Assembly (NCBI GenBank): GCA_028753945.1
Contig: JAPNXP010000015.1
Coordinates: 1,736,001-1,800,000 of the forward strand
DNA length: 64,000 bases
Source of the DNA: Hexactinellida sp. DTS-2022
Taxonomy: Eukaryota > Porifera > Hexactinellida
Direction of reading: 5' to 3'
Under the pieces are notes generated by a model. That model searched no databases and had not been told where the DNA came from. It saw nothing but the letters and a program-made list of their open reading frames with translations. Position numbers and translations under genes: made by a program. How positions within the stretch are numbered: position 1 is the first letter of the stretch; each line of letters opens with the position of its first letter. Of this stretch, positions 16,673 to 57,302 are shown piece after piece.

Positions 16673-16787
16673 TCCAAAATTGCAGCCTGTGCCGACGCAT
16701 GTTCCTTTGGTGGCACTATATTTTGTTGGTGGTTTATTGATAGTGCCTCCAATGGACCATACTGTCGGACAGGCTGCAATTTTGGAT
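16673..16787 (+). repeat. Hairpin cassette copy 1
   Basis: This is a 115-bp imperfect palindrome with arms starting TCCAAAATTGCAGCCTGTGC and a ~20-nt loop. The right arm is somewhat diverged (CAATGGACCATACTGTCGG) compared with copies 2 and 3. Confidence 0.8.
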
Positions 16788-17880
16788 TTTTTTTCACCAT
16801 GTCATCATCATCACTATGAAGGTGTTAGATTATTTCAGAAAGGTGTTTCAGAAGGATACGACCCTTAGAGTGGTGGAAGTTACCATTTAGCTCACTTCAT
16901 TTGAGAGATATTCAAGTTTCAGTAGAATATAATAGTTGATGACTCAGCATTTTTTATGTGCGTGTTGGGTGATCACCCAACACCAACAAACCCATTCGAA
17001 ATATAGAATTCACAAAAATTGTAAAAACACATTTTTTTTACGATGTCATCATCACCTCAAGGTGTCAATACCCATTTGTAGAGGTGTTACGTGACATAAG
17101 GATCAATTGATAAATTGGAAGTTTGTCTTTTTTGAATTCTGAGATTTATGATATTTAATTAATTTGTATAAATAATTATAAATATTATTTATAATATAAC
17201 ACCAATTTCAATTTCAACTTACAATTATTAAGATAAATTATTTTGTCATAAATAATTAATTAATTAATTTGGTTATCAAATTTCAATTCCGCACACTCGA
17301 TAACCCCTAATACACAAATTGGAAGCATCTATATAAGTCATATACTGACTGAATTAATTATAATTAATTACGTCAGTCTATTAACAGTGCAAGAATATTC
17401 TCGCAGAAATAAATATAATCACTTAATCTGTCGTTGTTGTGGAATGTAAAATCTTAGGTTTCAATTAGAAAATAGAAGCCTACTTGATCTCACAAGTTCA
17501 ATCAATATAATTATTACAAGTTGAAACAATGGAATTAGATTTCACAGTTTTACTGAAATTGAAGTGTGAGTAAACAAAGAAATTACAACCCCCATTTATG
17601 GCAGAAATAAAACTCTTTATTAAAAGTTTTCTTCTCCCATCAGACGCAGAATTTTATGGTGAATCCAAATGTGAAATAAAATTTGGGGGTTTAGTAAAAT
17701 ATCTTTTGAGTTATGGACCAGACAAATTTTGAAAGGTGTTAAAGATGTGTCAAAAATTTGTTAATCAAAAATCGTAACCCCAGGTGCAAATTAGACGGTC
17801 CCATCGCACCTACATGCCAAGTTTCAGCCCATCAACTATAAAGCTCAGGCCAGGGCACCGTCTACGGAGAAAAAAAAAAA

Positions 17881-17995
17881 TCCAAAATTGCAGCCTGTGC
17901 CGACGCATGTTCCTTTGGTGGCACTATATTTTGTTGGTGGTTTATTGATAGTGCCTCCAAAGGAACATGCTGTCGGCGCAGGCTGCAATTTTGGA
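17881..17995 (+). repeat. Hairpin cassette copy 2
   Basis: 115 bp, near-perfect. The left arm contains GCCGACGCATGTTCC and the right arm GGAACATGCTGTCGGC, so one unpaired base (A in the right-arm complement) interrupts the stem. The loop is rich in GGTGGTTTATT. Confidence 0.85.
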
Positions 17996-18740
17996 TTTTT
18001 TTCCCCAAGTCATCAACGCCCAAGGTGTGAAGAACCATTTGTTAATTGGTCGGAGTCACAAGGAACGGTAGATAAATTTGAAGTTAGTTTATATCATAAA
18101 CCATCTTGAGTTTAATGCCACTCATTCATTTTGTATTGATAATAAGTTATATTATTAGTTATTTATTTTAGCAATGTTATCCATGGTGATTTGAGTAAAG
18201 TCAATAAATTCCTTGTATTATTATATTTTATTTAATCCATTGTATAGTAATACTATAATTAAATAGAAGCCAGCTGGAATTTATAAGTTGGATCTATTTA
18301 ATTATCGCAAGTTGAAACAATAGTGAAAGATTTAACAAGTTAAATCAATATAATTATTACAATTTGAAACAATGGAATTAGATTTCATAGTTTTATTGAA
18401 ATTGAAGTGTTGAGTAAACAAAGGAATTTCAACTCCCATTTATGGCAGAAATTAAACCAATTTTAACAAATTTTCTTCTCCCATCAGACGCAGAATTTTA
18501 AGATGAATCTAAATATGAAATAAAATTTAGGGGTTTATTAAAACATATTTTGAGTTATGGACCAGACAAATTTAGAAAGGTGTTAAAGATTGACAAAAAT
18601 TTCTTAATAAAAATTCGTAACCCCAGGTGCAAATTAGACGGTCCCTCCGCAACTACATGCCAAGTTTCAGCCGTCAATGTATACAGGTGTGGCCAAGGGA
18701 CCTGCTACGGATAAATAAAAATAAAAATAATAATAAAAAA

Positions 18741-18855
18741 TCCAAAATTGCAGCCTGTGCCGACGCATGTTCCTTTGGTGGCACTATATTTTGGTGGTGG
18801 TTTATTGATAGTGCCTCCAAAGGAACATGCTGTCGGCACAGGCTGCAATTTTGGA
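18741..18855 (+). repeat. Hairpin cassette copy 3
   Basis: 115 bp, nearly the same as copy 2, with the same one-base asymmetry in the stem. It is preceded by a (AAT)n-like tract. Confidence 0.85.
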
Positions 18856-19546
18856 TTTTTTTTGCCAAGTCATCAACGCCCAAGGTGTGAAGAAGCATTT
18901 GTTATTTGGTCCGAGTCACAAGGAACGGTAGATAAATTTGAAGTTAGTTTATATCATAAACCATCTTGAGTTTAATGCCACTCATTCATTATGTATTGAT
19001 AATAAGTTATATTATTATTTATTTATTTTAGCAATGTTATCCATGGTGATTTGAGTAAAGTCAATAAATTCCTTATATTATTAGATTTTATTTAATCCAT
19101 TGTATAGTAATGCTACAATTAAATAGAAGCCAGCTGGAATTTATAAGTGAAATCAATATAATTATTACAAGTTGAAACAATGGAATTAGATTTCACAGTT
19201 TACTGAAATTGAAGTGTGAGTAAACAAACAAATTTCAACCCCCATTTATGGCAGAAATAAAACTATTTATTGAAAGTTTTCTTCTCCCATCAGACGCAGA
19301 ATTTTATGGTGAATCAAAATATGAAATAAAATTTGGGGGTTTAGCAAAACATTTCTCTAGTTATGGACCAGACAAATTTTGAAAGGTGTTAAAGATGTGT
19401 CCAAAATTTGTTAATCAAAAATCGTAACCCCAGGTGCAAATTAGACGGTCCCATCGCACCTACATGCCAAGTTTCAGCCCATCAACTATAAAGCTCTGGC
19501 CAGGGCACCGTCTACGGAGAAAAATAATAATAATAATAATAAAAAA

Positions 19547-19659
19547 TCCAAAATTGTAGCTGTGCCGACGCATGTTCCTTTTGTGGCACTATATTTTGGT
19601 GGTGGTTTATTTATAGTGCCTCCAAAGGATCATGCTGTCGTCACAGCTGCAATTTTGGA
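19547..19659 (+). repeat. Hairpin cassette copy 4
   Basis: 113 bp with a shorter arm start (GCTGTGCCGAC instead of GCCTGTGCCGAC). The change is matched on the opposite arm (GTCACAGCTGC), so pairing is kept. Confidence 0.8.
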
Positions 19660-19940
19660 TTTTTTCGCCATCTTATGAACGCCTCATAGTGTTTAGACTC
19701 ATTTAACAAGTTGTATGGTACAAAGGAACGATTGTTGATTTTAAATTATTTCTATCTTGAACCACCTTGAGTTTAATGCCATTCATTCATTATGTATAGA
19801 TAATAATTTATATAAATAGTTAATTATTTGAGCAATGTTATCCACTGTGATTTGAGTTAAGTAAACAAATTCCCAATATAATTTACTTTGCTTTAATCCA
19901 TTGAATATTAATATACTGTTAAAAATTGGAAATAAGCATA

Positions 19941-20200
19941 CCGTATTTATTCGAATAGTAGCCTCTATTCGAATAATCGCCTACCTCCAATAATCGCCCC
20001 CCTAAAGTAGCAAATAAAAATTTATTACTGCTATCCGGAGTAAACATCTATATCTAATATAACTCACAATACGATTATCAACCGATTATCATAAATAAAT
20101 TGTAATAAAATGTGATATTCTAGAAAATTGCTTAAAATTATTGGTCCAAAAATGGAGTAAAAAACAATAATCGCCTAGGCTACTATTCGAGTAAATACGG
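19941..20200. mobile_element. Mariner-type MITE (260 bp)
   Basis: The ends CCGTATTTATTCGAATAGTA and the inverse TACTATTCGAGTAAATACGG are flanked by TA (19939-19940, 20201-20202). It is non-coding. Confidence 0.8.
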
Positions 20201-20214
20201 TACTTGTTTACTTA

Positions 20215-20830
20215 GAATGACAAAAGGATTAAGTTTATATTTCCATTATAAATGCGTTATAATTATCCCCCCCCTATCACTCTAATACAATTCGGACACC
20301 AAACACGCACACAGACGAATAGTCATTTAATAGATATTCCATTTAATTAATCCATTGTTTGTATATCTGTCATCGTTTTAAAATTGAAATCAGCATACTC
20401 GCTTACTTTGAATGATATATGGGGATTAAGTTTATATTTCCATTATAAATGCGTTATAAACCCCCCTTACACTCTAATACATTTCGGGCACCAAGCATAC
20501 ACATAGACAAATATTTATACAAATAGATATTCCATCTCATTAATCCATTGTTTGAATATCAGAATCGTTCTGAAATTGAATAACTGTTGAGTTAAATTGA
20601 ATTTTCTTATAGGAGAAAACTTTAATACAACTATTGTATTAGAAATCGATTTATATAGTAGCAGCTATTGAATCAAATTGAATTATTCATATACACTAGA
20701 ATACTTTATTGTAACTATGATATCAGAAATTGATTTGTATAGTAATAGCTATTGAATGTAAATTAACTATTCATATATTCTAGAATTCTTTATTGTAATT
20801 ATGATATCAACAATAACTTGAATCGAAATA
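20215..20830. repeat. Low-copy tandem duplications
   Basis: A unit of about 197 bp containing AAGTTTATATTTCCATTATA occurs twice (about 20215-20410 and 20411-20600). It is followed by a ~85-bp unit with AATCGATTTATATAGTAGCAG-like sequence repeated two to three times. The copies are clearly diverged. Confidence 0.6.
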
Positions 20831-21109
20831 ACACTGAATCTAATTGAATTATTCATAAATATAGTTATTCATTGAAACCACGAAATAATTGCATAATTGA
20901 ATATTAATGAATTTATGATTTTAGAAAGTTAAGGGTGAATTGTGGCAACTTTGAGCCTAATTATTGGGAAAATGAGGACAGATTAAAAAAATCGTGAAAA
21001 GCTATCAGTTGCAAAATACTTTTCTGATACTAATGATTCTAAATTTTTTCTTGTTATTGCATTTATTTTCTTATGGGACAAAAAAAGCTAAAAGTCCCGT
21101 TAAAAATTT

Positions 21110-21240
21110 TCCCAAGTCGAAATTAATAAATCGTGACCCCAGGTGCACATCTGTGACCCATGAGACACATATTCTGAAAATTTTGGCTCTTAGTTAATAA
21201 AACTCTGGTCAGTAGAGAGGCTACGGACCAATAATAACCA
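21110..21240 (+). repeat. Partial B block of the hairpin-repeat family
   Basis: GTGACCCCAGGTGCACATCT and GAGGCTACGGACC match the end of the B block found before the hairpins. Here it is followed by a different palindromic cassette (21241-21490) instead of the hairpin. Confidence 0.6.
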
Positions 21241-21505
21241 AAGCACTAAGACCAATACTGGGCCACTATACTATAGTATAGTCGGCACAGTAATAATGGC
21301 AGTGATTCTAATACTGGGCCACTATACTATAGTATAGTCGGCACAGTAATAATAATAATAAAAATAATAATAATAAAGGCAGTGATTCTAATACTGGGCC
21401 ACTATACTATAGTATAGTCGGCACAGTAATAATATACCAAAGCACTAAGACCAATACTGGGCCACTATACTATAGTATAGTCGGCACAGTAATAATAATA
21501 AACAG
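21241..21505 (+). repeat. Four palindromic cassettes with (TAA)n spacers
   Basis: The core CTGGGCCACTATACTATAG continues into TATAGTCGGCACAGTAATAA and occurs four times. Two versions of leader alternate (CCAAAGCACTAAGACCAATA and GGCAGTGATTCTAATA). Each core contains the palindrome ACTATACTATAGTATAGT. A fifth copy is at about 24272-24330 (inverted) and a variant is at about 36076. Confidence 0.8.
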
Positions 21506-21547
21506 AGTAATACAAATCATGGTAAATACAAATAAGTTGACACATAA

Positions 21548-24272: not shown

Positions 24273-25427
24273 ATTACTGTGCCGACTGTACAATAGTATA
24301 GTGGCCCAGTATTGGTCTTAGTGCTTTGGTATATTATTATTATTATTATTATTATTATCCTTCCGTATCCTCTCCAGCAGCAGAGTATTATTAACTAAGA
24401 GCCCAAATTTTCAGGATATGTGTCTCATGGGTTACAGATGTGCACCTGGGGTCACGTGTTTTATCACATTTTTTTGGCCACATTTTTGCACCTGTTTAAT
24501 GCTAGAAAAAGAACAATAAATAGTCCGCGAATAACTAATTTATATGCATTCGATAGATAATTAAATTCTACACCTTTTCACAGTGCACGAATTTATAAAT
24601 TGGGTTTCGTTAGTGCCAGAATAGAGTTGCAAATTTCCTTTGTTTACTAACACTTCAGTTCAATAGAAAGTGTTAAAGCTAATTCTATTGTTTCAACTTG
24701 TGATTATTGTATTCATTCAACTTGTGAGATCGAGTAGGCTTCTATTTTCTAATTGAAAACTAAGATTTTACATTCCATAACAACGACAGATAATGTGATT
24801 ATATTTACTTCTCCGTGAATATTCTTGCACAATGGATACGTAACATATTTAATTCTAATTAATTCGCTCTGTGTTTAACTTATAGAGACGGTTCCAATTA
24901 GATTATTGGGGTTATCGAGTGCGCTGAATTCAAATATTATAATTAAATTAAATTAAAATTAATAATAATTGCAAATAATTGAACTTCATTTATTTTGCTA
25001 TACATAATAATGGTGTTAAATTATTAATAAATTAATAATTATTTATAGTGATTTGATAAATAGCATTAATCTCAGAGATTATACAAGATAGAGACAAACT
25101 TCCAATGTATCAATTGATCCTTATGCCACGTAGTACCTCTGCAAATATGTCTTGACACCTTGAGGTGTTAATGACATCTTCAAAAAAATGAGTTTTGACA
25201 ATTTTGTGAATTCTATATTTCGAATGGGTTGGTTGCCGTTGGGTAATCACCCAACACGCACATAAAAAATGCTGACTCATCACTTATTATATTCTACTGA
25301 AACTTGAATATCTTTGAAATGAAGTGAGCTAAATCGAAACTTCCAACTCACTAAGGGTAGTTGCCTTTTGAAACACCTTTTTGAAATAATTTACACCTTC
25401 ATAGTGATGATGACATGGCGAAAAAAA
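24273..25427 (-). repeat. Inverted hairpin-repeat unit (cassette, B block, long A block)
   Basis: Read on the minus strand the order is: hairpin 5 (25428-25538), long A block, B-type block (GTGACCCCAGGTGCACATCT near 24460), (TAA)n, then the CTGGGCCACTATACTA cassette. The same order with sequence similarity is present from 16673 to 17876 on the + strand and at 42481-43368 on the minus strand. At 25284 the string ACTTATTATATTCTACTG is the uninterrupted form of the Helitron target at 43361-44796. Confidence 0.7.
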
Positions 25428-25538
25428 TCCAAAATTGCAGCCTGTGCCGACAGCATGTTCCTTTGGAGGCACTATCAATAAACCACCAACAAAATATAGT
25501 GCCACCAAAGGAACATGCGTCGGCACAGGCTGCAATTT
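25428..25538 (-). repeat. Hairpin cassette copy 5
   Basis: Inverse orientation: the arm with GACAGCATG comes first. The outermost TTTTGGA of the distal arm is replaced by a T/TTA run. Confidence 0.8.
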
Positions 25539-26249
25539 TTTATTATTATTATCGGATTATCGATAATTATTGGTCCGTATCCTCTCCACAGAACAGTGTT
25601 TAATTAACTAAGAACCCAAATTTGTAGGACAGGTGTATCATGGGTTACAGATGTGCACCTGGGGTTACGATTTTTGATTAAAAAATTTTGGACACATTTT
25701 TAACACCTTTCAATATTTGTCTGGTCCATAACTCAATAATATTATACTGAACCCTAAGCTTTTATTTCATCATTGGATTCATCATAAAATTCTGCGTCTG
25801 ATGGGAGAGGAAATCTTTTAATAATGGGTTAAATTTCTGCCATAAATGGGGGTTGAAATTTCTTTGTTTACTCACACTTCAATTTCCGTAAAACTGTTAA
25901 ATCTAATTCTATTGTTTCAACTTGCGATAATTATATTGATTTATTAACTTGTGAATTCGAGCTGGCTTCTATCTAATTGTAGTATTATTATTTCATGGAT
26001 TAAAGCAAATTAAATTAAATAAGGAATTTGTGAGCTTAAATCAACTAACCGTGGATAACATTGCTAAAATAAATAACTAATAAATTAATAATATAATTTA
26101 TTATTAATACATAATGAATGAATGGCATTAAACTCAAGATGGTTTATGATAGAAACATACTTCAAATTTATCTACCGTTCCTTGTGGCTCGGACCAATTA
26201 ACAAATGGTTCTTCACACCATGAGGCGTTGATGACTTGGCGAAAAAAAA
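25539..26249 (-). repeat. Inverted B and A blocks between hairpins 5 and 6
   Basis: TCTGCGTCTGATGGGAG near 25795, CCATAAATGGGGGTTGAAAT near 25840 and TGTTTCAACTTG near 25915 are inverse matches to the B block of the 17-19 kb array. The A block matches at 26030-26240. Confidence 0.7.
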
Positions 26250-26362
26250 TCCAAAATTGCAGCCTGCGCCGACAGCATGTTCCTTTGGAGGCACTATCAA
26301 TAAACCACCAACAAAATATAGTGCCACCAAGGAACATGCGTCGGCACAGAAGCAATTTTGGA
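26250..26362 (-). repeat. Hairpin cassette copy 6
   Basis: Inverse orientation, with minor changes (CTGCGCC; CACAGAAGCAATT). The stem pairing is mostly kept. Confidence 0.8.
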
Positions 26363-26699
26363 TTTTATTCTATAATTTCTTATCATCCTGTATGCAGCTA
26401 TAGATATACAAAGAAGTTCCCCAGCAAAAATCAGTAGGTGTTTTGTATACCGGATATTATGATCTGAAATCAAAGAGAAATTCTAGCTGGGTCTCTAGGA
26501 ACTGAAAATGTGTTGATTCTTGTACATCTATTGTCATTTGTTTCAACTCTTCCATGGTCTTTAACAAATGATCATTGTTAGAAGTTTCATAATTATTAAC
26601 AATCGAGAGGATTTCTTCCATCTGAGACCATCTATGAAGGAACTATTCTTCTGAGAATGAAAATTATCTTTGGGATCTCATAACCACTCTTTTCTACCT

Positions 26700-28835: not shown

Positions 28836-28870
28836 GACAGATGGATTGTCATTGATCCTATTGGTTACTT

Positions 28871-29817
28871 TAGTCCAGCGGCATAGACATAAAATTTCAA
28901 CAGATTGTTCATTTTTTTGATAAAAGCACCAAAATTTGTACACATGTACTTTGATGTGCGAACATTTTTGGATGTTGAGGCAATTGAATAAGTGTCTATA
29001 TCGGCCATGACAGCTCGTCAACGTTAACACGTCCGATAGTGTTCGCCGGACTTGTTTCCCATAAAAACTTGTTCAAATTAAGTTATATCGTATTTTTTTG
29101 TTGAATTCGGTTTCCAAGTAAATTTCCGATAATTTGATATATCACATGACCATATTTGGAAGAATTTTTCCATAGCAACCCTGGAATGTACCAAGAATGT
29201 GTCAAAAATTCCATTCTCCAATTGTGTCCTTAACCAATCGAGTGACCAGTCTTTCGACTCCACTCAACTAAATGAGTATAATTATACACATACCGACCCT
29301 GTAAAACATGATTTGATAAAATTATTCGATATTTATGGTAAATCACCGTGAATCTCGAATAATTTTATCAAATCACGTTTTATAGGGTCGGTATGTGTAT
29401 AATTATACTCAGGTAGTTGAGTGGAGTCGAAAGAGGGGTCACTCGATTGGGTAAGGACACAATTGGAGAATGGAATTTTTGACACATTCTTGGTACATTC
29501 CAGCGTTGCTATGGAAAAATTCTTCCAAATATGGTCATGTGATATATCAAATTATCGGAAACTTTACTTGGAAACCGAATTCAAAAATAAAAATAAGAGA
29601 TAACTTAATTTGAACAAGTTTTATGTGAAACAAGTCCGGTGAACACTATCGGACGTGTTAACGTTGACGAGCTGTCATGGGCGATGTAGACACTCTTTCA
29701 ATTGCCTCAATATCCAAAAATGTTCTCATTACATCAAAGTACATGTGTACAAATTTTGGTGCTTTTATCAAAAAAATGAACAATCTGTTGAAATTTTATT
29801 TCTATGCCGCTGGACTA
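28871..29817. mobile_element. Foldback element, ~947 bp
   Basis: Two inverted arms of about 460 bp meet near 29335-29345. The outer ends are TAGTCCAGCGGCATAGACAT and its inverse. The arms match over nearly their full length with scattered differences. No gene is present. No target duplication was found, so the superfamily is unknown. It ends 10 bp before the mariner-type MITE. Confidence 0.75.
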
Positions 29818-35119: not shown

Positions 35120-35695
35120 TTTTCCACACTGTGTTGAGGCTATGACCGCTATCCTGCTGCTTTACGCCTCGCCGTGCATGTCCCTGGAGGTCAGTTGGTA
35201 CACTTCCAGGAAAGTGAAGCTTTGCAGACTACGCAAGCAGGGGAGCCTCACACTTAACTAATGGCATTCTTTGATGCAAACACCGATGCACACCCTGATC
35301 ACGTAATTTCCCGACATCCACTTTTTCCAGGACTTCCCAGATATGAACCACTTCGGAAATAAATTTAAAATGTGGAGTCTGAGGCGTGAGGGACGTGGGA
35401 ATCCGGCGGAACGATTGGTTGCATGTACAACGTGCATCCGAGCAAAGGAGAGCGCTTCTACTTGCGTATACTTCTCACGCACGTGCGTGGCGCAAAAAGT
35501 TTCATCGAGCCTCGGACTGTTGATGGTCATGCCCCATGTGAGACCTTCAAGGAATCCTGTCGTCTCCGCGGGCTGCTTTATGAAGACAGCGAGTGGGACA
35601 AGTGCCTTCAAGAAGCTGCTACTCACATCATTATAAGACAGTTGTTCGCATCAATACTCCTATTCTGCAAGCCAACTGATGTACCGATGTAGCAG
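35120..35695 (+). pseudogene. Helitron RepHel fragment, region before the helicase
   Basis: In shifting + strand frames the Helitron block reads RLAVHVPGGQLVHFQE (about 35165-35220). It then reads KFKMWSLRREGRGNPA and, after a frameshift, GCMYNVHPSKGERFYLRILL, THVRGAKSFIEPRTVDG, SEWDKCLQEA and LFASILLFCKPTDVPM. This is the linker between Rep and Pif1 domains. Several frameshifts are visible. The matching helicase piece lies 6 kb further right (41717-42480) on the same strand, so one Helitron was probably split by the intervening sequence. Confidence 0.75.
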
Positions 35696-36339
35696 CCCAG
35701 ATTAACCCCCCACCAGTATATTCCCGGGTATGCTCTTGCCTAGGACAGAATATACCCCACGGTATATTCTGTCTTAGCCTAAAACATACCTGAGTATGAA
35801 GTGGTCTAGCCCAAACTACGCCCCTCTACCCCAGAATATATCCCTATCGTATTGGGTATGGCTAATTTTCGGGGCGGGACAGTAACGGTGGCATAGTAGG
35901 TTACCAATTATGTAGTACATATTTCGAATGTCGATTGATCAAAAAACCACCACAAGTTTATAATATGTGGTTTCAATTTTGATAACTAAATACGTACTAA
36001 TTTATTGAAAAAATGGCAATAATTGTGAATAGATTATAAATTATTTAAATTAATTAGTATGTATTACGCAGTGAGCTAAGAACTGGGCCTCTATACTATA
36101 CTATACTATAGTCTGCACAGTGAAAATGGCAAATAATTGTGAATAGATTATAAATTATTATTTTTGACTAATAATCCATTATAGAATGTTAAAACTATCA
36201 AGAGAACTAATATTTGAACAAATTCAATTTGCCAAAAAGTTAATAGTTCATGAATAATAAGTCATATTCTAGAATTATTCAACTTAGAGATGGGACATAC
36301 GTTATTTGTTTATACACAAGGAAAATTATATACTAGTAG
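35696..36339. other. Segment between Helitron fragment and gypsy LTR
   Basis: 35700-35880 has several inverted or direct copies of a motif near GTATATTCTGTCTTAGCC and AGCCCAGATTA; related motifs occur at 41600-41716. A variant palindromic cassette (CTGGGCCTCTATACTATAC) lies at about 36076, and a short duplicated string, AATTGTGAATAGATTATAAA, at 36018 and 36131. No gene is present. Confidence 0.5.
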
Positions 36340-36539
36340 TGTGACGTAGAAGAGAATATTAATAGTATAGTTAGCTAGTACACAATTACAATAAATAACG
36401 TGAAATACATAAATAAGAAATGCCTATTGGTATAAATAATAACTAGAGATAGATAACCTATTGGTTGGTAAGTATACCTCCCACGTAGACTAACACGATA
36501 CACCTATTGCTAAGCTAGTTACTACTACGCTATATCACA
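36340..36539 (-). repeat. 3' LTR of the 36.3-41.2 kb gypsy element
   Basis: 200 bp, TG...CA in both orientations (TGTGACG... to ...ATCACA). It looks the same as the right LTR at 41037-41236. Confidence 0.95.
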
Positions 36540-36593
36540 TCACTCCCCCCTAAATAAACTACAACTTAATTCGTTTATCCCACTAAACGAAGC

Positions 36594-39500
36594 CTAATCC
36601 CATTCTCCAAACCAGTCCGGCTTCCTCGTTGATCGAGTAGATCTTCTGACACCTCCACTCTGGTCTGTCAGATCGCTACGACTTGGTGTGTTTTCCTCCT
36701 CCGTATTTTGAATGTGGACGATTACTTCTTCGGGGGAGGGTTCTTCTGATATTAGCGTTTCTCCATTTCCCCCTTGACTATTAAAAGAGCTTTCCGCTTC
36801 AAAAGCATCTCTGTTTCTGCTTCCCTGGGGGGTACTGTACGACAACCTCCCATTCCAATTAGACGGACAAACTTGTGAAGCCTTCTTACACCGATTTAAA
36901 TGTACTATGTGCGTATCATTCCCTTCCGGACCTGTTAACTCAAGGTTAACTCCCCGCCTCTCAGCGACCAACCACGGGCCTCGAAACATGGGTGAGAGGC
37001 TATGTGGACGCGCCTCATTTCTGAGCCATACCCAATCTCCCGGCTCAATATCACTAGACTTTGTCCCACGATTATAGTTTCTTTCCATAGTTTGTCGAGA
37101 GTCCTGGAGATTGTTGTAAACTCTCCGCGCCACCTCACGCCTAGCCTCTTCGGCATGCTTGCAGAAACTCGAAATATTGGGAAAATCTCTCGGTCTACTG
37201 AGTGGAAAAATGACATCGGCTTTCGACCTTAAAGGGGCGCCATACATTACCTCATGGGGAGAACACCCTGTGCTTGCGTTGACGTATGAATTGCATGTAA
37301 AAGTGACTTCTTGTACTAGTGTTGGCCACTCAGTTTCGTTAAATTGTCTCTCTTCTAGTAAACATCGCATAGCTTGCTTAAACGTTTCCACACTTCTTTC
37401 TGCTTGGCCGTCCCCCTGGGGGTGATAGGGGGAAGAACGGAGTTTCTCGATTCCAAGTCTCTCACATAGGCCTTTAACCAGTGCTCCATCCACATTCCGA
37501 CCCTGATCGGATAGCAAAGCGAGGGGATATCCGTGGCGCAGAAACCATCCTTGTTCGAGGGCCCTTACTACTGAATTAGCCTCTTGGTTCTTCATAGGGA
37601 CAGCCTCAATAAACTTTGCAAATAGATCCGTGATTATGAGTACGTAACGGAATCCTCCAGATGACCAGGGAAGCGTTGCTATATCATAGGATACCACTGT
37701 CCTAGGGAAATTATACGGGAGCTTAATAGGAACCAATGGCTGTCTACGCGTACTTGATCTCTTGCTCTTTTGACAAACTTCGCAGGTAGAACAGAATCTT
37801 TCGACATCACCAAATAGGCCCCTCCAGTAAAATCTTCGCTTGAGCTCCTCAAACGTCCTCTGAACACCCCAGTGTGAATTATTGTGGACTATCCCAATTA
37901 CCTTCTCAGTCATTGAAGCTGGAATTATCATGCGGCGACTTCGAAGAAGGATTCCATTTTCAATTTTCATTCCTCCGAATTTTCTAAAACGTCCCCGACT
38001 AATTTTTCCTCGTTCTCGAATTTGACTGCAGGCATCCGCTATGAGTAGGTCGGATAATTGTTCCTTCCTGAGTTCATTCAGAATCGATGAGCATTCCAGT
38101 TCGATCATATTACCTTCACCACTCTCATTTTCCGTTACCACGCAGACCTTCTTACTGTCTCTTTTTGAAGTCCGTACCGAGTAAATGTGTCGCTCCAAAT
38201 TTTCAGTCTCGTCATTTACCTCAGTATCGTAACTAGTTGCGCTACGGCTAAGATAATCTGCTGCTAAATTCTCACTCCCTTTTCGATACCTTACCATATA
38301 GTTTAGTCCTTCGAGTTCGAGGAGCCACCGAGCGAATTTACCGCGAGGATCCCTTTTCTGTCTCAACCATATCAAAGGGTTGTGATCAGATGATATAATC
38401 ACTCGCTCCGCCGCTTGTAGATACTTGGAAAATTTTCGAGAGGCTGCTACTATTGCCCAGGCTTCTTTTTCCCCGACACTATACTTTTTCTGAGCCCCGT
38501 CCAAAGTAGACGAAAAAAATGAAATGGGTTGAAGCTTCCCTTTGTGGTCCTCCTGTGCGAGCACACCGCCAATTGCACTGTCGGAGGCATCCACTTCTAA
38601 GTGGAACGGCTTTGCCCAGTCCGGATACGCGAGGGTAACGGGATTCTTCGTTAGAGCAAGGCACAGCTGTTGATAACTGCATTCACACTCTTCGTTCCAA
38701 TTCCATGCGACCCCTTTCCTGGTTAAGTAATACAGTGGAGCAGCGAATCGAGACAGCTCCGGCTGAAAATCCCTATAATAGTTCACTAGTCCAAGAAAAG
38801 ACCTCAACTGCTTTACATTTGTAGGCCGTGATTGCTGTTGAATGCGTAAAACGTTGGATGAGAGCGGTTTGTAACCGTCTTTCGTCAGAACATGACCTAG
38901 GAACTCTACTTCTGTATATCCAAAACGACACTTGTCCCTGCGTAGTTGAAGATTTGAGTCTCTGTAACAAGTAAGTACCGTTCTAAGATCGGCCAAATGA
39001 TGATTGAATGTATCCGAGAAAGTCAGAGTATCGTCGATATAAGGTAAACTATGTGGCGCATCTCTTAAAGCGAGATCTATAATCCTCTGGTATGTTGACG
39101 GTGCATTACACAAGCCAAATGGCATAACGCAGAATTCGAATTGTCCCCTAGGCGAGACAAATGCGGTCTTCTCCTTGTCTTTCTCCACAATCGGCACACT
39201 CCAATAGGCGCTAGCACCATCCAGTGTAGAGAAATATTCACTTCCTTGAAGCTTGTCTAGAATATCCTTCATCTCCGGTATGGGATATGAGTCCTTCTTC
39301 GTTAGATCATTTAACGCGCGATAGTCCACCGCAAAACGTATAGTGCCATCCTTTTTCTTGACGAGGATTACTCTACTTGCCCACGGCGAATTAGATGGAC
39401 GAATCACACTGTTTTCTAGCATTTGTTTAATCTGACCATTTATCTCCTGTTCAGCCCACGGTGACACTCTGGTGTATCTCGCTTTCGCGGGGAGTGCATC

Positions 39501-41018
39501 CCCAGTCTCTATACCGTGTTTCATGAGAGAAGTTGTGTTTGGTTTTTTGGGATTCGCGGCGAAAACATCGGGAAAATCGTCTAGTACGCTTTCAGTCGCT
39601 TCCTTCTGTATTATACTGAGTTCAGGATTGATATCCCACCTATCTCTTTGTATATGCCCCCCAGATTCCTCCAGAACACTTCTTACAGCTCCGGCTCTGG
39701 ATAACGCCTGACCTCCCCATAACGAAACTTCCGTAGATATCCAACATCCCCCCAACCGAACACGACTATTTTCCCAATCAAATTCCGTAGTTCTGAACCG
39801 CTTTAGAAAGTCTCTGCCCAAAATAATCGTCTGTTCCGAACTGTCCAGTACTATGAATCTGTGTTTCAGACGGCAGGCTCCCCCAACATCTACATCTAAG
39901 TTGACGAGCCCCCTGGTTTTGATTGGCGTGGCACATACACCGTGCACCCGGCTGGGGTTTATCTGATAATTGACGTTTAAACTGTGCAATGACTGTGTAT
40001 CAATTATAGAAGGTTGTGCGCCAGAATCTAGCATTACATTTGTTGCCTGTCCATTCAGCTTTACAGGGATCATGACTCCAGCTTCGCCAAGATAGTTGTT
40101 CCTGGTGCCCTCTCGGGTATCAACAGAAAATACCTGTTTCTTTGAGAAACAGTCGCGACGGTCATGCCCTTTCTTGCCGCATGTTTGACAATATTGAAGG
40201 GGGCAGGTTCTCTGGAGATGTTCCGTACTCTCACACACAAAACATCTTAGGGGGTAATTACGTGGTCGGCTATCCCATCTGGTGCTCCTAGGCCCGCCCC
40301 GGAAGCTTGAGCGTCCGCGTTTCTCCCACCTTTTCACAACTTTAACGCTTTCGTTCTCATTCTCGGGCAAGGGTGCCTGGATTATAGTGGCACCTTGGTT
40401 AGGCTGGAAGGTTTTCTCAGTAATATTGCTGTCACCAGACTCCTCGGCGCGAATTTCACATACTTGCCCAAAATCACGGTGGCCTTTATCAAGTGGGATA
40501 TTCTTCTCCGCCAGTACTTTGCGGACTTTACCGATAAACACACGAGACAGAGCCGCAGTCATCTCTTCTTTGTCTGCTAACCAGTCGTTAATGGGCCCCT
40601 GGACGGATGGAGGCAATTGAGTGATGAGTACTACACATGCTATGCGTAGAGGTGCTTTCGCCCATACAGTTGCAGTCTTAAGTTCATAAAAATAGTCATC
40701 TATGAAGACTCCTGGTTCCCAGTCCTTATTCCGAATAGTTTGCATAGCTTTGATAGGATCAATTGGTGCATCCAAGTTGTCTCGTAAGGTCTCGAATGCT
40801 TCTGTAAGATTTGCGGTTTCGTTCACAACTTCTCTGACGAGTTCCCGTTCCGCAACACGTCGACACACGTACGCTGGTAGCAAGCTAATGGCCAAGCGTT
40901 CTCCTCCTTCTTGTAGAAGTAGTGGGGCCACAGATGCACGGAATAGTCTCTCCCAATTTTCTATGCGCTCACCGCTCTGAAGAGGTGGTATGTTCAGGCC
41001 ACCCAAATGCGTTGCCAT
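36594..41018 (-). CDS. Gypsy Gag-Pol polyprotein (single frame, 1474 residues)
   Basis: Parts in order: a Gag-like N-terminal region (about residues 1-250), two CCHC zinc knuckles (CFVCESTEHLQRTC and CQTCGKKGHDRRDC), an aspartic protease (MLDSGAQPSIID), a reverse transcriptase with the YIDD motif, RNase H, and an integrase with an HHCC zinc finger and a catalytic core. The C-terminal tail resembles non-chromodomain gypsy integrases. Gag and Pol lie in one uninterrupted frame, so no frameshift signal would be needed between them. It is a family protein of mobile origin, not a host gene. Confidence 0.95.
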   Translation of the reverse strand: MATHLGGLNIPPLQSGERIENWERLFRASVAPLLLQEGGERLAISLLPAYVCRRVAERELVREVVNETANLTEAFETLRDNLDAPIDPIKAMQTIRNKDWEPGVFIDDYFYELKTATVWAKAPLRIACVVLITQLPPSVQGPINDWLADKEEMTAALSRVFIGKVRKVLAEKNIPLDKGHRDFGQVCEIRAEESGDSNITEKTFQPNQGATIIQAPLPENENESVKVVKRWEKRGRSSFRGGPRSTRWDSRPRNYPLRCFVCESTEHLQRTCPLQYCQTCGKKGHDRRDCFSKKQVFSVDTREGTRNNYLGEAGVMIPVKLNGQATNVMLDSGAQPSIIDTQSLHSLNVNYQINPSRVHGVCATPIKTRGLVNLDVDVGGACRLKHRFIVLDSSEQTIILGRDFLKRFRTTEFDWENSRVRLGGCWISTEVSLWGGQALSRAGAVRSVLEESGGHIQRDRWDINPELSIIQKEATESVLDDFPDVFAANPKKPNTTSLMKHGIETGDALPAKARYTRVSPWAEQEINGQIKQMLENSVIRPSNSPWASRVILVKKKDGTIRFAVDYRALNDLTKKDSYPIPEMKDILDKLQGSEYFSTLDGASAYWSVPIVEKDKEKTAFVSPRGQFEFCVMPFGLCNAPSTYQRIIDLALRDAPHSLPYIDDTLTFSDTFNHHLADLRTVLTCYRDSNLQLRRDKCRFGYTEVEFLGHVLTKDGYKPLSSNVLRIQQQSRPTNVKQLRSFLGLVNYYRDFQPELSRFAAPLYYLTRKGVAWNWNEECECSYQQLCLALTKNPVTLAYPDWAKPFHLEVDASDSAIGGVLAQEDHKGKLQPISFFSSTLDGAQKKYSVGEKEAWAIVAASRKFSKYLQAAERVIISSDHNPLIWLRQKRDPRGKFARWLLELEGLNYMVRYRKGSENLAADYLSRSATSYDTEVNDETENLERHIYSVRTSKRDSKKVCVVTENESGEGNMIELECSSILNELRKEQLSDLLIADACSQIRERGKISRGRFRKFGGMKIENGILLRSRRMIIPASMTEKVIGIVHNNSHWGVQRTFEELKRRFYWRGLFGDVERFCSTCEVCQKSKRSSTRRQPLVPIKLPYNFPRTVVSYDIATLPWSSGGFRYVLIITDLFAKFIEAVPMKNQEANSVVRALEQGWFLRHGYPLALLSDQGRNVDGALVKGLCERLGIEKLRSSPYHPQGDGQAERSVETFKQAMRCLLEERQFNETEWPTLVQEVTFTCNSYVNASTGCSPHEVMYGAPLRSKADVIFPLSRPRDFPNISSFCKHAEEARREVARRVYNNLQDSRQTMERNYNRGTKSSDIEPGDWVWLRNEARPHSLSPMFRGPWLVAERRGVNLELTGPEGNDTHIVHLNRCKKASQVCPSNWNGRLSYSTPQGSRNRDAFEAESSFNSQGGNGETLISEEPSPEEVIVHIQNTEEENTPSRSDLTDQSGGVRRSTRSTRKPDWFGEWD

Positions 41019-41036
41019 AATATGTATTGTAATTTA

Positions 41037-41236
41037 TGTGACGTAGAAGAGAATATTAATAGTATAGTTAGCTAGTACACAATTACAATAAATAACGTGA
41101 AATACATAAATAAGAAATGCCTATTGGTATAAATAATAACTAGAGATAGATAACCTATTGGTTGGTAAGTATACCTCCCACGTAGACTAACACGATACAC
41201 CTATTGCTAAGCTAGTTACTACTACGCTATATCACA
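41037..41236 (-). repeat. 5' LTR of the 36.3-41.2 kb gypsy element
   Basis: 200 bp, same sequence as the left LTR as far as can be seen. It is the promoter-side LTR because the coding frame runs leftward from 41018. Confidence 0.95.
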
Positions 41237-41453: not shown

Positions 41454-41599
41454 GCAGTGGCGGCGCTAGCCGGCCGCCACTGGTGGGGCACAAATGCGTC
41501 ACATGCAATTAAACTGGGGCACACTTACGTTAATTAGGTGAGGCACTCTAAATTATGGGGGGCACAGACCCCACCTGGCCCCACCCTAGTGCCGCCCCT
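41454..41599. mobile_element. hAT-like MITE, GC-rich
   Basis: The ends CAGTGGCGGCGCTAG and CTAGTGCCGCCCCTCG are imperfect inverted repeats. CAGTGGCGGC is a common hAT start. A target duplication is unclear. The boundary with flanking repeats is approximate. Confidence 0.55.
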
Positions 41600-41716
41600 C
41601 GCAAGGAGTATAATCTGTCCTAGCACAGAATATCCCGAGTATAATCTAGGCTAGTACACATTAACTCCGGATATAATTTGGGCTAGCCCAGATTATACCC
41701 CCAAAGGGGTATATTC

Positions 41717-42480
41717 ATGACCAATTCACAGAAGAAGTCCTGGAGGCTGGAGCGCCTACGTGAGGAGGTAACCGCCAGGGAAGAGTCCATTACGCCCGAC
41801 CTGCGTGTTGCATACGATATATTGAACGGCAAGAACGAACGGAACGAAGGCGGTATTATGTTTATTGACGCCCCCGGTGGCACCGGCAAGACGTGTCTGC
41901 TCAACCTGTTAATCATTAACTCCACGCTCAAAGGAAATTTTACACTGGCCACTACGAGCTCTGGGATTGCAGCCACTCTATTGAAAAGTGGCATTACAGC
42001 TCACACTGCTTTCAAGCTTCCGATTCCCGAAAATTGAATCTCAGTGTGCGGCTTTAAGCGGATTGATGCAGCCGGGAGGCATCTATCTTGGTGTGGGATG
42101 AATCTCCCATGCAGTACCGCTGGAATTTGGAGGTCTTAGACCGCTCTGTGAGCGATGCAATGAAGGAGTCGGGTCAACCCATGCTCATGCAGCCGTCCGG
42201 TGGGAGGCTGCTCATTCTTAGCGGTGACTTCCGTAAGCTTCTGTCTGTTGTGAAGCGTGGAGTGCGAGCCCAGATCTTCAACGCTTGCCTCACGAAGTCT
42301 GAGCGACTGTGGTCACAGACGCAGATTCTTCACTTGAAGACTAACATGAGGTGCGAACGTCTGCTGCTCGGCCAAGACGTGATCCTTCTAAATGCAGACT
42401 GTGCGGCTGAAACAGAACAACAGATGGCAATCCCCACAGAATTCCTCAACACTCCCACTCCATCCGGAATACCACCTCAC
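41717..42480 (+). pseudogene. Helitron Pif1-like helicase, N-terminal part
   Basis: The first frame (41717-42037) carries the Walker A motif IDAPGGTGKTCLLNLL and the next motif TTSSGIAATLL. The second (42088-42552) carries Walker B VWDESPM, then ILSGDFRKLL, then ILHLKTNMR. The two are separated by a frameshift and stop near 42040. Homology ends at about 42480, where the sequence changes abruptly to half of a hairpin cassette (CTGCAATTTTGGA), so the last helicase motifs are not here. It would belong with the fragment at 35120-35695. Confidence 0.85.
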
Positions 42481-43368
42481 TGTCTGCACAGCTGCAATTT
42501 TGGATTTTTATTGGCCCGTATCCTCTCGAAAGAACAGAGTTATATTTACTAAGAACTTAAGTCTTCAGGACAGGTGTCTCATGGGTTACAGATGTGCACC
42601 TGGGGTCACGATTTTTGATTGTTTTTTTTTTTGAGAAAAATTAATACTACACCTTTTCACAGTGCACGAATTTTAAAATTGGGTTTAGTTTGTGCCACAA
42701 TTGAGTTGCAAATTCCCTTTGTTTACTAACACTTCAGTTCGATTGAAAATGTTAAATCTAATTCAATTGTTTCAACTTGTGATAATTATATTGATTCCAC
42801 TTGTGAGATCGAGTAGGCTTCGATTTTCCAATTGAAAACTAAGATTTTACATTCCATAACAACGACAGATTATGTAATTATATTCACTTCTGCGAGAATA
42901 TTCTTGCACAATGGATACACTGACATATTTATTTCTAATTAATTCGCTCTGTTTTTAAATTTTCGAGACGGTTCCAATTAGATTATTGGGGTTATCGAGT
43001 GCGCTGAATTCAAATATTATAGTGAAATTCAATTTAGATTAATAATCATTGCAAATAATTGTATTGAATTTATTTTGCTGTACTTAATATTGGTGTTAAA
43101 ATATCAATGAATTAATTAATTATTTATACTAATTAGCTAAATTTCATTAATCTCAGAAACGATATCAGATAGAAACAAACTTTAAATTGATCAATTGATC
43201 CTTATGCCACGTAACACCTCTACAAATGGGTCTTGACACCTGGAGGTGATGGTGACATCGTCAAGAAATGTGTTTTACAATTTTGTGAATTCTATATTTC
43301 GAATGGGTTGGTTGGTGTTGGGTATTCACCCAACACGCAGATATAAAATGCTGACTCATCACTTATTA
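42481..43368 (-). repeat. Inverted hairpin-repeat unit with half a hairpin
   Basis: 42480-42503 is one arm end of the hairpin. The B block follows (GTGCACCTGGGGTCACGATT at 42595) and then the A block to 43368, all in the same order as 24380-25290. The A block is interrupted at 43368 by a Helitron and resumes at 44786. Confidence 0.75.
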
Positions 43369-44785
43369 TCTATACTATTAAAACAAAAGGCTGGGTGTAT
43401 ATGTGTATATGTATATCTATATTATTAAATCTCGATTGTTGTTTGTTTGTTTGTGTGTGTGTGTGTTTGTCCGGATTATATTAAATTGATGGGGGAATAG
43501 AAACCGCAATTAATATTGGGATATAAACTAACTTTCAAATGTTATAATAGGTAAACAATTCTTATAATAGGTAAACAAGTATGCTGAACACGAATTTCGC
43601 GTTTATAAATTTCTCATATGAATATTTGTTGTTGTTGTTTACACAAAATAGGTAAACAAATTAATGAAAATTCAAAATCAACCAAGAAGTTAGCTTCCAA
43701 CGGATATTATAGGTAAACAAGTATGCTGAAGACGATTTTCGCGGTTATATTTTTCTAATATGAATATTTGTTGTTGTTGTTTACACAAAATAGGTAAACA
43801 AATTAATGAAAATTCAAAATCAACCTAGAAGTTAGCTTTCAACGGGTATTGTAGGTAAACAAGTATGCTGAACACGAATTTCGCGTCTATAAATTTATAA
43901 TATGAATATTTATTGTTGTTGTTTACACAAAATAGGTAAACAAATTAATGAAATTCGAAATCAACCTAGAAGTTTGCTTTCAAAGGGTATTATAGGTAAA
44001 CAAGTGTGCTGAACACGAATTTCGCATTTTTAATTTCTAATATGAATATTTGTTGTTGTTATGTTGTTTACCAAAAATATGTAAACAAATTAACGAAAAA
44101 TTCAAAATCATTCTTGAAGTTTGCTTCCGACGGGAATTATTCGTAAACAAGTTAAAACTATGGAAATGGTAGAAAGAGTTGTATATAACTTCCTCTAACA
44201 TTTTCCATGGTAGCAACGGTGGGGAGTAAGGCCGCATAGCGGCCGTTAACTTGAGGTACGTAGCACCGATCTGTCGCAAAGCGACCGAGACCGAAGGGCT
44301 CGTATATATATATATGTGTATATATTTGTTTGTATGTTACGAGTTGATTGAAGAAAGTGGACGGTTTCCAAATGTGATTTTTGGCATGTAGGGGTAACTT
44401 TTGGCGACCCGCCAACAAGTTGAGGTTTCCACTCAAAGTTTCTCACACCTCGACAAGTTATGACGTCATTGTCACATTTCGAGAAGAATGAAAATTCACT
44501 TAATCGCACACAATTCGCGCCATCTAAGAGATAAAAATCTGAAAATTTAATAGAACATGTACATTAATGATGCGGACACGTTGGTCACACCAGATCGCCA
44601 CTATGCTAACTCATTATCGCATGATGACGTAATCATTAAAATTTCACATTGTTAAATTTGACTATTTAGGCCTATTTACGCTTTGTAATCAATATTAGGA
44701 GTATATAAACCACACACCAACCGCGAAGCTGTTGGTGTGTGGTTGTGATCTGCCGCGAAGCGACCTAGCAAGCGAAGCGCGCTAG
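43369..44785 (+). mobile_element. Non-autonomous Helitron (1417 bp) with an observable empty site
   Basis: The 5' end is TCTATACTATTAAAACAAAA and the 3' end is a hairpin, GCAAGCGAAGCGCGC, followed by CTAG. The flanks are ...ACTTATTA | TATTCTACTG..., and the related unit at 25284 has ACTTATTATATTCTACTG without the insert. Insertion was therefore between A and T with no duplication, as in Helitrons. The interior holds a (GTTT)n leader, four 142-bp tandem repeats, palindromes such as GTCGCAAAGCGAC and sequence shared with 27.2-27.4 kb. No RepHel gene is present. Confidence 0.9.
43571..44142 (+). repeat. Four tandem 142-bp units inside the Helitron
   Basis: GTAAACAAGT recurs at 43571, 43713, 43855, 43996 and 44143. 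Each unit contains TATGCTGAACACGAATTTCG-like and ATTTGTTGTTGTTGTTTAC-like sequence. Related single units are in the Helitron relics at 45450-45620 and 61140-61240. Confidence 0.9.
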
Positions 44786-44924
44786 TATTCTACTGAAACT
44801 TGAATATCTTTGAAATGAAGTGAGCTAAAACGAAACTTCCAACTTACTAAGGGTCGTTGCCTTTTTAAAAACCTTTCTGAAATATTTTAACACCTTGATA
44901 GTGATGATGACATGGCAAAAAAAA
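44786..44924 (-). repeat. Continuation of the inverted A block
   Basis: TATTCTACTGAAACTTGAAT to the hairpin matches 25290-25427 closely. Confidence 0.75.
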
Positions 44925-45043
44925 TCAAAATTGCAGCTGTTGCGACAGCATTTCCTTTGGAGGCACTATCCATTAACCAGCCAGTAGCCACCAAAATATA
45001 GTGCCTACAAAGGGAATTGCGTCGGCACAGCTGCAATTTTGGA
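44925..45043 (-). repeat. Hairpin cassette copy 7
   Basis: An inverse-oriented, diverged copy with the shorter GCTGT... arm, as in copy 4. The loop carries CCAGCCAGTAGCCACC. Several mismatches weaken the stem. Confidence 0.75.
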
Positions 45044-45711
45044 TTTTTTTGTTTATCCGGATTGTATTAAAGCAGGGGTTCTCAACCGGGGGGGAAATCC
45101 TCCCTAGGGGGGAATTTGGAGGATTTTGGGGGGAAATTTTTTAAAATTTGGTCATACCTTATAATATCTCTACAAAGTAAAATTACTTAAATACTTACAA
45201 AGGTGACCAAAATATACAAGTAACCTATTTACTATACAACACGATAGGTTTACTACTGATTCTTATTCATATTTTCTCTTGTTTGTAATGAATAATATAA
45301 TACAATTTACAGTTAACAATTATGGGGGGGGGGGGAATGTCTAGAAATTTCGAAAGGGGGGTAACATGATTGTTTCGGTTAAGAATCCCTGTATTAAAGT
45401 GATGGGGAAAAGAAACCGCATCCATATTTGAGATAGAGAAGTAACTTCTAAACGTTAAGAAAGGTAAGCAAGTTATGCTGATTTCAAATTTCATATTTAT
45501 AAATTAGTAATATGAATATTTATTGGTGTTGTTTACCAAAAATAGGTAAATAAAATTATACAAAGTTCGAAATGAACCTAGAGGCTGGCTTCCAAAGAGT
45601 AGGTAAACAAGGTCCTAGTCGAGGGTCATCTGTATATATAACTTGCATGTGTCTGAAAATTAAATTAGAAAAGTGTTGGCAAAATGCGCGATAAAGTTAT
45701 TCATTAAAAAA
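45044..45711 (+). mobile_element. Helitron relic split by a hAT MITE
   Basis: GTTTATCCGGATTGTATTAA and, after the MITE, TGATGGGGAAAAGAAACCGC match the leader of the Helitron at 43369. One diverged 142-bp unit (about 45450-45605) follows. The true 5' end is replaced by hairpin copy 7. Confidence 0.65.
45073..45391. mobile_element. hAT MITE (319 bp)
   Basis: The ends CAGGGGTTCTCAACC and GGTTAAGAATCCCTG are flanked by the 8-bp duplication TATTAAAG (45065-45072, 45392-45399). It has G-rich runs near both ends and no coding. Confidence 0.9.
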
Positions 45712-45831
45712 TCCAAAATTGCAGCTGTGCCGACGCATTTCCCTTTGGAGGCACTATCTTTTGGTCGCTACTGGTTGGGTAATTGATATTGACTCCAAGG
45801 AAAATGCTGTCGGCACAGCTTAAATTTTTGA
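45712..45831 (+). repeat. Hairpin cassette copy 8
   Basis: Direct orientation (GCCGACGCATTTCC in the left arm, GGAAAATGCTGTCGGC in the right). The loop, GGTCGCTACTGGTTGG, is related to that of copy 7. Confidence 0.75.
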
Positions 45832-57300: not shown

Positions 57301-57302
57301 TC

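Follow-up and report, generated by a model that had tools for sequence, protein, structure and literature searches.

A hairpin-ended repeat of a glass sponge genome as a candidate HINE-like element that nests in its own A/TAA tract

Introduction

The non-autonomous elements known as HINEs follow a plan which, as outlined in PMC4067079 and PMC7492417, comprises subterminal inverted repeats, a complementary repeat, a microsatellite and a 3′ palindrome, with insertion into T-rich targets; in plants, rolling-circle tandem arrays of Helitrons are among the subjects of a review (PMC12628747). Here we analyse a family of repeats with long hairpins in a 64,000-nucleotide stretch of the genome of the glass sponge Hexactinellida sp. 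DTS-2022 (GenBank assembly GCA_028753945.1, contig JAPNXP010000015.1, positions 1,736,001 to 1,800,000). This stretch, hereafter the window, is C7:1736001-1800000 in the contig numbering used below, and the whole 112.4-Mb, 18-contig genome was searched for copies. We put at about 0.6 the probability that the hairpin, the A block, the body, the B block, an (A/TAA)n tract, a spacer and a 33-bp small palindrome form one non-autonomous mobile element, which moves by rolling circle as a HINE and nests in its own tract.

The original prediction, made from the window alone, saw a modular system of interchangeable palindromic ends. The ends are indeed palindromic, but they do not appear to be interchangeable: hairpin and small palindrome are better read as the opposite ends of one element, adjoined by nesting. 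A grammar of insertion thereby replaces the picture of modular cassettes. The internal blocks are named A1 or A2, M, and B, B′ or B3, and the small palindromes are typed x, y or z.

Results

Order and abundance of the units

On one strand, the fetched arrays read hairpin, A1 or A2, M, then B, B′ or B3, an A/TAA tract, zero to five small palindromes, and the next hairpin. We therefore reject the suggestion that the cassette CTGGGCCACTATACTA takes the hairpin's place, since the small palindrome stands between the tract and the following hairpin. Junctions were listed from exact anchor strings lying no more than 90 nt apart. Apart from one spurious row of 55 nt, in which no B end is involved, the 28 B-to-hairpin rows are all A/TAA-rich (27 of 27, 7-48 nt), as are the five junctions from small palindrome to hairpin (8-24 nt); the 23 rows from B to small palindrome consist of the tract and an 18-nt spacer, of which there are three kinds. 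The mapping of exact junctions had been proposed as a check; they share a single location, the A/TAA tract that follows CTACGGA.

The start motif of the A block lies downstream in 49 of the 52 hairpins that have both inner-arm strings, counted over all fetched stretches. All eight hairpins of the window (Table 1) share one direction with respect to A and B, so that the two orientations noted previously apply to whole arrays and not to hairpins within units. The claim that each hairpin lies between a B and an A block holds for half of them: a B block stands before copies 2, 3, 4 and 5, and unrelated DNA before copies 1, 6, 7 and 8, because each of these begins an array. The sole hairpin of the annotated arrays found inside a unit of the opposite direction, at C1:2358055, sits in an A-rich site of an older A2 block, and insertion direction therefore follows the A-rich strand there too.

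Genome-wide, a palindromic pattern of two exact 13-bp hairpin arms occurs at 2,883 sites, and its reversed control at none, so the pattern is not due to chance. The exact 33-bp small palindrome is found at 4,938 sites (2,503 + 2,435), and a one-arm hairpin core that includes the conserved motif described below at 3,664 (1,896 + 1,768), from which the number of units is put at about 3,660 or more. The ratio of exact small palindromes to exact-armed hairpins is 1.71 in the genome and 1.62 in our sample of arrays (55 to 34); this agreement implies about one small palindrome per unit genome-wide. An exact-sequence search of viral contigs gave no matches.

A model of nested insertion

The proposed element would measure some 0.9-1.5 kb when free of later insertions. 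Read from small palindrome to hairpin, it would carry the 10-bp motif CTGTGCCGAC at its extreme 5′ end, followed by the partial complement of this motif (the small palindrome), a T/TTA microsatellite, the body and, inside the large terminal palindrome that we call the hairpin, the inverted motif GTCGGCACAG; the end signature expected of an autonomous partner is ACTGTGCCGAC...GTCGGCACAG...GGATT. New copies would enter T-rich tracts (A-rich on the other strand) in one orientation and, because the element's own microsatellite between small palindrome and body is such a tract, insertions would nest. A copy landing between B and the small palindrome would push the old small palindrome past the new copy. 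One flank of an array would gather the bodies with their hairpin ends in line, and the opposite flank the 5′ ends with their small palindromes, last in, first out. On account of this displacement, the number of small palindromes should track that of units, they should stack at array ends, and their types should pair in last-in-first-out order; the apparent B-hairpin-A modules, and the B blocks that still precede a small palindrome, would both follow from nested insertion. We lean slightly towards the view that a rolling-circle element uses its own microsatellite in this way, as an orientation-fixed landing pad, and that the arrays are last-in-first-out stacks.

Type pairing and relatedness within arrays

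Fourteen arrays with 60 units and 65 small palindromes were parsed and typed by hand from the array annotation. The sample behind this and the other array statistics comes mainly from the initial 3.5 Mb of a single contig, at loci picked for a hairpin or a small palindrome; several arrays are truncated by the limits of their locus, and two B fragments lacking a hairpin were counted as units. The pairing analysis omits array 3 of the window, single hairpins without B block or small palindrome (hairpin 8 of the window, C1:1088290, C1:2366458 and two at locus L001), the unit at C1:2358055, whose small palindrome is shortened, and one disrupted small palindrome.

The types of B block and small palindrome agree in 21 of 23 directly adjacent pairs. 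Under last-in-first-out pairing, they agree in 45 of 51; shuffling across all arrays gives a mean of 27.6, and none of 20,000 shuffles reaches 45. When small-palindrome types are shuffled within arrays, the mean is 41.4 (p = 0.029); under first-in-first-out pairing, 42 of 51 agree. The order is therefore less strongly supported than the link between types. By way of illustration, the array at C1:1129944-1139642 has six B units with six y-type small palindromes and one z; C1:2366001-2376000 reads B B B y y y, and C1:927203, a lone unit, reads B y. At C1:2220001-2230000, all units are of the B′ kind and every small palindrome is of type x or z. The small palindromes are mostly stacked at array ends and do not alternate with units.

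Thirty-eight B-type bodies could be aligned across the whole M-B stretch. The closest relative of a body lies in its own array in four cases, where about four are expected by chance (a value derived by hand), and in another array in the remaining 34, several of them at 99.5-100% identity. Likewise, the closest relative of a hairpin is in the same array in 4.0 of 56 cases, against a computed chance value of 4.15. Neighbours are thus no closer than chance, and we conclude that tandem duplication did not build the arrays of this sample. The fallback offered with the original prediction, a foldback miniature inverted-repeat transposable element (MITE) hitchhiking in a satellite, consequently finds no support in the sampled arrays, which do not resemble a tandem-duplication satellite.

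Ends and target sites

The single unit at C1:927203 breaks an open reading frame whose intact form, AAAGAACGAATG-A6-TGGGAGCAAGGACA, is present at two other places; the filled site has A8 ahead of TCC and A5 behind CACAGT. The broken frame (L040 1-2460, equivalent to C1:927170-929629) is reverse-transcriptase-like as judged by eye. The unit at C1:2358055 lies in ...GCTAAAATAAATAACTAATAA, an AAATAA tract, and the A2 block of other copies provides its empty form. A search for an empty site of array 2 of the window found none. Among innermost units, four with AAAAA at the small-palindrome end also have A-runs at the hairpin end, and the AATAA units are mixed.

Several features of the HINE plan are present. 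Subterminal inverted repeats occur at both ends, CTGTGCCGAC in the hairpin and GTCGGCACAG in the small palindrome. At the two empty-site loci, the end read from small palindrome to hairpin is A-CTGTGCCGAC after a T-rich flank, which places the 5′ repeat about 1-2 nt from the end, compared with the 2-4 nt described for HINE, the boundary here being blurred by the A/T tract. A complementary repeat follows, in the form of the small palindrome with its imperfect complement, and then the spacer and the T/TTA tract. Insertion is T-rich, as judged from the A6 and AAATAA sites (other strand) and from the 27 B-to-hairpin and five small-palindrome-to-hairpin junctions. The full set of characteristics of canonical Helitrons (5′ TC, 3′ CTRR and clean A/T insertion) is lacking: read from hairpin to small palindrome, the element starts with TCC after an A but ends in CACAG, and at the single insertion it brings seven extra A/T letters. 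Nor does it have the terminal inverted repeats of a MITE, as no inverted repeat is formed by its outermost bases, AATCCAAAATTG and CACAGT.

The hairpin stem

The eight stems of the window have predicted folding energies of -59 to -92 kcal/mol. As had been reported, all eight hairpins keep a one-base asymmetry in arm length, with variant readings in copy 1 (ATACTGTC) and copy 7 (GACGCAAT). The shorter arm, previously ascribed to copies 7 and 8, is present on both sides there and in copy 4, and on one side in copy 6. Copy 4 was said to have its arm changes compensated; this is true of the short arm, but one-sided changes are found in it as well.

Stem pairing was counted over 49 pairs in 56 hairpin copies, six of them of the older type. 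The cells comprise 2,511 with the common pair, 138 one-sided mismatches, 35 G-U pairs, 15 compensated pairs and one other, so that 138 of the 189 altered cells are one-sided. The 15 compensated cells compare with a shuffle mean of 1.7, and none of 500 shuffles reaches 15, these controls ignoring relatedness. Arm-length types are associated (34 long/long, 12 short/short, and seven and three mixed; p = 2.5e-5). In the left arm, GACGCA is kept in 51 of 56 copies, has gained an extra A in four and is otherwise different in one. A close pair of units, C1:1138023 and C1:1411505 (98.7% identity over 838 bp), bears on the origin of such changes. In C1:1411505, a stretch of the left arm matches the complement of the right, down to a substitution and an extra A that abolishes the asymmetry, which points to copying of the left arm from the right. 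Template switching, or arm-to-arm copying, is treated as a known mutation process in PMC8794818.

Conservation differs between the two arms. On the terminal-proximal side, the motif CTGTGCCGAC is intact in 53 of 56 copies, with three different changes in the others, and its mirror in only 21 of 56, with 14 different changes; one variant, GTCGGCGCAG, found in 17 copies, makes up about half of the altered mirrors. Genome-wide, the motif in its arm context occurs 3,664 times as against 1,720 for the mirror (46 and 20 in the sample), while sample arm contexts counted without requiring the motif are nearly equal, at 46 and 44. At the small-palindrome end, there is one altered cell in the ten motif positions over 67 copies, which were gathered by similarity to the small palindrome. 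This inequality fits a protein-binding terminal repeat, with binding putative, better than it fits a fold.

Search for an autonomous partner

The genome contains 151 matches to Helitron_like_N, none linked to hairpin or small-palindrome ends. Of those listed, eighteen fall within open frames of 1,695-1,709 amino acids, suggesting a recently active Helitron family. In the window, a Pif1 helicase fragment (42067-42480), which has close relatives in the genome, is joined in the sense direction to the single hairpin arm of the half copy. Two candidate marks of an autonomous element were dropped: the rare half-hairpin variant, with one of 42 sites beside a listed helicase match, and the B3-type end, which has 228 sites, 100 of them listed, many in regularly spaced groups. 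One listed B3-type end, at C4:1555946, is followed on its own strand, after about 1.5 kb, by a Helitron Rep fragment (C4:1555946-1557948), possibly by chance.

The window and its other elements

The eight full hairpins (about 125 bp) and the half copy of the original prediction were all located, and are listed in Table 1 with the arrays and their parts.

Table 1. Positions in the window of the hairpins, arrays, small palindromes, B-block ends and conserved motifs.
Feature	Position	Strand	Remarks
Hairpin 1	16667..16792	+	5′ end of array 1; unrelated DNA before
Hairpin 2	17874..18002	+	In A tract behind B block
Hairpin 3	18735..18861	+	In A/TAA tract behind B block
Hairpin 4	19541..19665	+	Short-arm type; behind B block
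Hairpin 5	25422..25547	-	In TAA tract behind B′ block
Hairpin 6	26244..26366	-	Start of array 2
Hairpin 7	44919..45049	-	Older type, longer loop
Hairpin 8 (copy 8)	45706..45836, within 45702..45883	+	Older, longer-loop type; followed only by A block, ~50 bp
Half hairpin (one arm, GTCTGCACAGCTGCAATTTTGGATT)	42480..42509	+	Joined to Pif1 helicase fragment
Array 1	16665..21489	+	Hairpin 1-body-B, hairpin 2-body-B, hairpin 3-body-B, hairpin 4-body-B′, four small palindromes; 4 hairpins : 4 small palindromes
Array 2	24277..26370	-	Hairpin 6-body-B′, hairpin 5-body-B′, one small palindrome
Array 3	42480..45051	-	Hairpin 7-body-B′-half hairpin; body broken by other DNA ~43385-44785
Four 33-bp small palindromes	21258..21489	+	Starts 21258, 21314, 21394, 21457; TAA tracts and 18-nt spacers between
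Altered small palindrome	24277..24309	-	End of array 2
Diverged palindrome like the small palindrome (CTGGGCCTCTATACTATACTATACTATAGTCTGCACAGT)	36081..36121	+	Possibly a relic
B block of unit 1, end CTACGGAG and A tract	17640..17873	+	Landing place of hairpin 2
B′ block, end CTACGGACC, TAA tract and spacer into small palindrome	21128..21257	+	Uninterrupted junction of B and small palindrome
Motif CTGTGCCGAC (10 bp), terminal-proximal arm of hairpin 1	16687..16696	+
CTGTGCCGAC in corresponding arm of other hairpins	17895, 18755, 19560, 45725 (+); 25519, 26340, 45021 (-)	+ and -
Same motif, inverted, at small-palindrome end	21281..21290 (-); also 21337, 21417, 21480 (-); 24277 (+)	- and +	24277 in array 2

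No open reading frame of at least 120 amino acids is listed in arrays 1 and 2. Array 1 contains a small inverted-repeat element at about 19939-20202, and array 2 is flanked on both sides by THAP/P-like transposon sequence. In units of the A1 type (for example 16793-17190), a second poly-T and A-block start lie some 240 bp past the initial one, which looks like an old nested copy absorbed into the element. The DNA that interrupts array 3 includes a 142-bp tandem repeat of about four copies (43563-44152), with relatives at about 45437-45611 and 61061-61248.

Other mobile elements in the window mark it as eukaryotic: Helitron Rep, Pif1 and THAP domains, and Ty3/gypsy-like pol open reading frames read from translations. 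A Ty3/gypsy-like element at 36340-41236, whose 200-bp long terminal repeats are 100% identical and whose minus strand carries an unbroken frame of 1,479 amino acids, is probably a recent insertion. It is flanked by Helitron-helicase-like sequence at 35258-36120 (by eye) and 41605-42480 (Pfam), and two further palindromes, at 35712-35805 and 41605-41701, lie beside these helicase-like pieces. Inverted repeats of 249 bp, 99% identical, at 55901-58431 surround an open reading frame without a Pfam match; PF12762, which we take to be the ISXO2/IS1595-type transposase domain, was detected in two of eight database relatives, and from its sequence the element looks like a young Merlin-type DNA transposon. 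Finally, a near-perfect palindrome of about 950 bp occupies 28870-29818, 94% self-complementary with some 5 nt at its centre.

Discussion

From the layout of its ends and its T-rich targets, we infer that the repeat would move by rolling-circle chemistry, served by a Helentron partner and without target-site duplication. A number of observations weigh against the proposed element and its nesting. The nesting is imperfect, with six of 51 pairs mismatched and 14 small palindromes and nine units unpaired, and last-in-first-out pairing is ahead of first-in-first-out by just 45 to 42. Small palindromes are too few at C1:653172 (six units, four small palindromes), C1:2220001 (eight, six), C1:2352001 (six, four) and L054 (three, one), and in surplus at L055 (one unit, four small palindromes) and in the cut array at C1:670908 (seven, 13). 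Any preference for the element's own tract is putative, and A/TAA tracts are present elsewhere too: those of at least 10 bp number 21 and 27 per strand in 84 kb, elements included. At both empty-site loci, the extra A/T letters fit a 5-bp duplication (AAAAA, AATAA) equally as well as a variable T-rich end with no duplication; ambiguity of the latter kind is raised for HINEs by Thomas and colleagues (PMC4067079). The match to the 3′ plan of a HINE, in which a subterminal repeat precedes a short palindrome closer to the end, is inexact, the motif lying inside a palindrome with a stem of about 50 bp, some 16 nt from the end. Lastly, no autonomous element with hairpin or small-palindrome ends was found among the Helitron Rep and helicase matches of the genome, and the window's half hairpin is, by eye, the only one of 42 sites of its arm variant that adjoins a listed helicase match, so this fusion may be a chance deletion.

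Could the arrays instead be satellites, in which a single unit was multiplied through tandem duplication, unequal crossing-over or rolling-circle read-through? Their head-to-tail arrangement would suit such an origin, for which the plant Helitron arrays offer a precedent. Since neighbouring units of the sample are no more alike than random ones, and the small palindromes are mostly stacked at array ends instead of lying one beside each unit, we judge a satellite origin highly improbable. We attach similarly little credence to the notion, advanced on the strength of the compensated changes, that selection acts on the hairpin fold in RNA or single-stranded DNA, for instance in a small-RNA precursor or a ribozyme-like molecule. 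The excess of compensated cells over every shuffle, the association of arm-length types and the strong predicted folds of the eight stems are in its favour, but one-sided mismatches far outnumber compensated cells, the arms are unequally conserved, and the clearest compensated copy, C1:1411505, is explained by arm copying that erases the conserved asymmetry. Moreover, a scan of the window with Rfam at gathering thresholds gave no match, and the hairpin was dropped as a member of a described RNA family.

Retroposition is another explanation, which we consider unlikely: a SINE-like retroposon driven by a long interspersed nuclear element (LINE) would enter A/TAA tracts by target-primed reverse transcription, with the B block and the tract as its tail. 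The A-rich targets with their fixed A-rich strand, the possible 5-bp A/T duplications and a B-end that presumably resembles LINE 3′ tails are all in keeping with this. A short copy consisting of the 3′ end only (L039), and two copies within arrays that are possibly truncated, among the 60 parsed units, fit as well. Against it, a 10-bp inverted motif is conserved at both ends, and the spacer and small palindrome lie past the supposed tail; two isolated small palindromes that were followed further both have long bodies, which weakens the case for frequent 5′ truncation. A LINE partner was also sought and dropped. Three LINE-like 3′ regions of the genome have no end in common with the element, finishing in other sequence with (ATT)n, and four listed matches to RVT_1 (C1 below 3.7 Mb) are, by eye, more than 20 kb from every listed hairpin or small-palindrome site. 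Among 100 listed B3-type ends, two have an RVT_1 match less than 7 kb away, at 2.7 kb on the opposite strand for C1:16313416 and at 6.2 kb on the same strand for C2:5301384. The inverted motif common to both ends and the possible AATAA/AAAAA duplications could also belong to a cut-and-paste DNA transposon of unknown superfamily whose subterminal ends are palindromic and which duplicates 5 bp of A/T target. This seems to us very unlikely, as no terminal inverted repeat is present at the outermost bases and the direction of insertion tracks the A-rich strand. Such a tie between direction and the A-rich strand is unusual for cut-and-paste elements.

If the nesting of a rolling-circle element is the correct reading, each array is a legible history of transposition, with bodies in order of insertion on one side and 5′ ends in reverse order on the other, and thousands of long palindromes, together with satellite-like arrays, can arise from independent insertions without tandem duplication. 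The stem data add a caution, namely that compensated changes in a long palindrome may reflect copying between its arms and not selection on the fold.

Among described systems, the closest are the HINE or DINE-1-like elements, such as HINE-Mo of a mite and Cg_HINE of the Pacific oyster. The features that PMC4067079 and PMC7492417 ascribe to them, namely subterminal repeats at both ends, a 5′ complementary repeat, a microsatellite near the 5′ module, a 3′ palindrome, T-rich targets and a variable number of T at the ends, recur in the sponge element. It differs from them in the stem of its 3′ palindrome, which is about 50 bp long and contains the repeat, and in its arrays, which would result from orientation-locked nesting of whole elements and not from short internal repeats. 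A literature search on self-nesting arrays, covering titles and the opening lines of abstracts, found none described, which is not proof of absence. The plant Helitron arrays, as summarised in PMC12628747, resemble those of the sponge in being head-to-tail with several copies of one end; here, by contrast, the units of an array are not each other's closest relatives, and the two ends are nearly equal in number, with one kind stacked. Coral CMITEs also are non-coding elements that form tandem arrays, but according to the account in PMC2872659 they possess terminal inverted repeats and piggyBac-like ties, whereas no terminal inverted repeat was seen in the sponge element.

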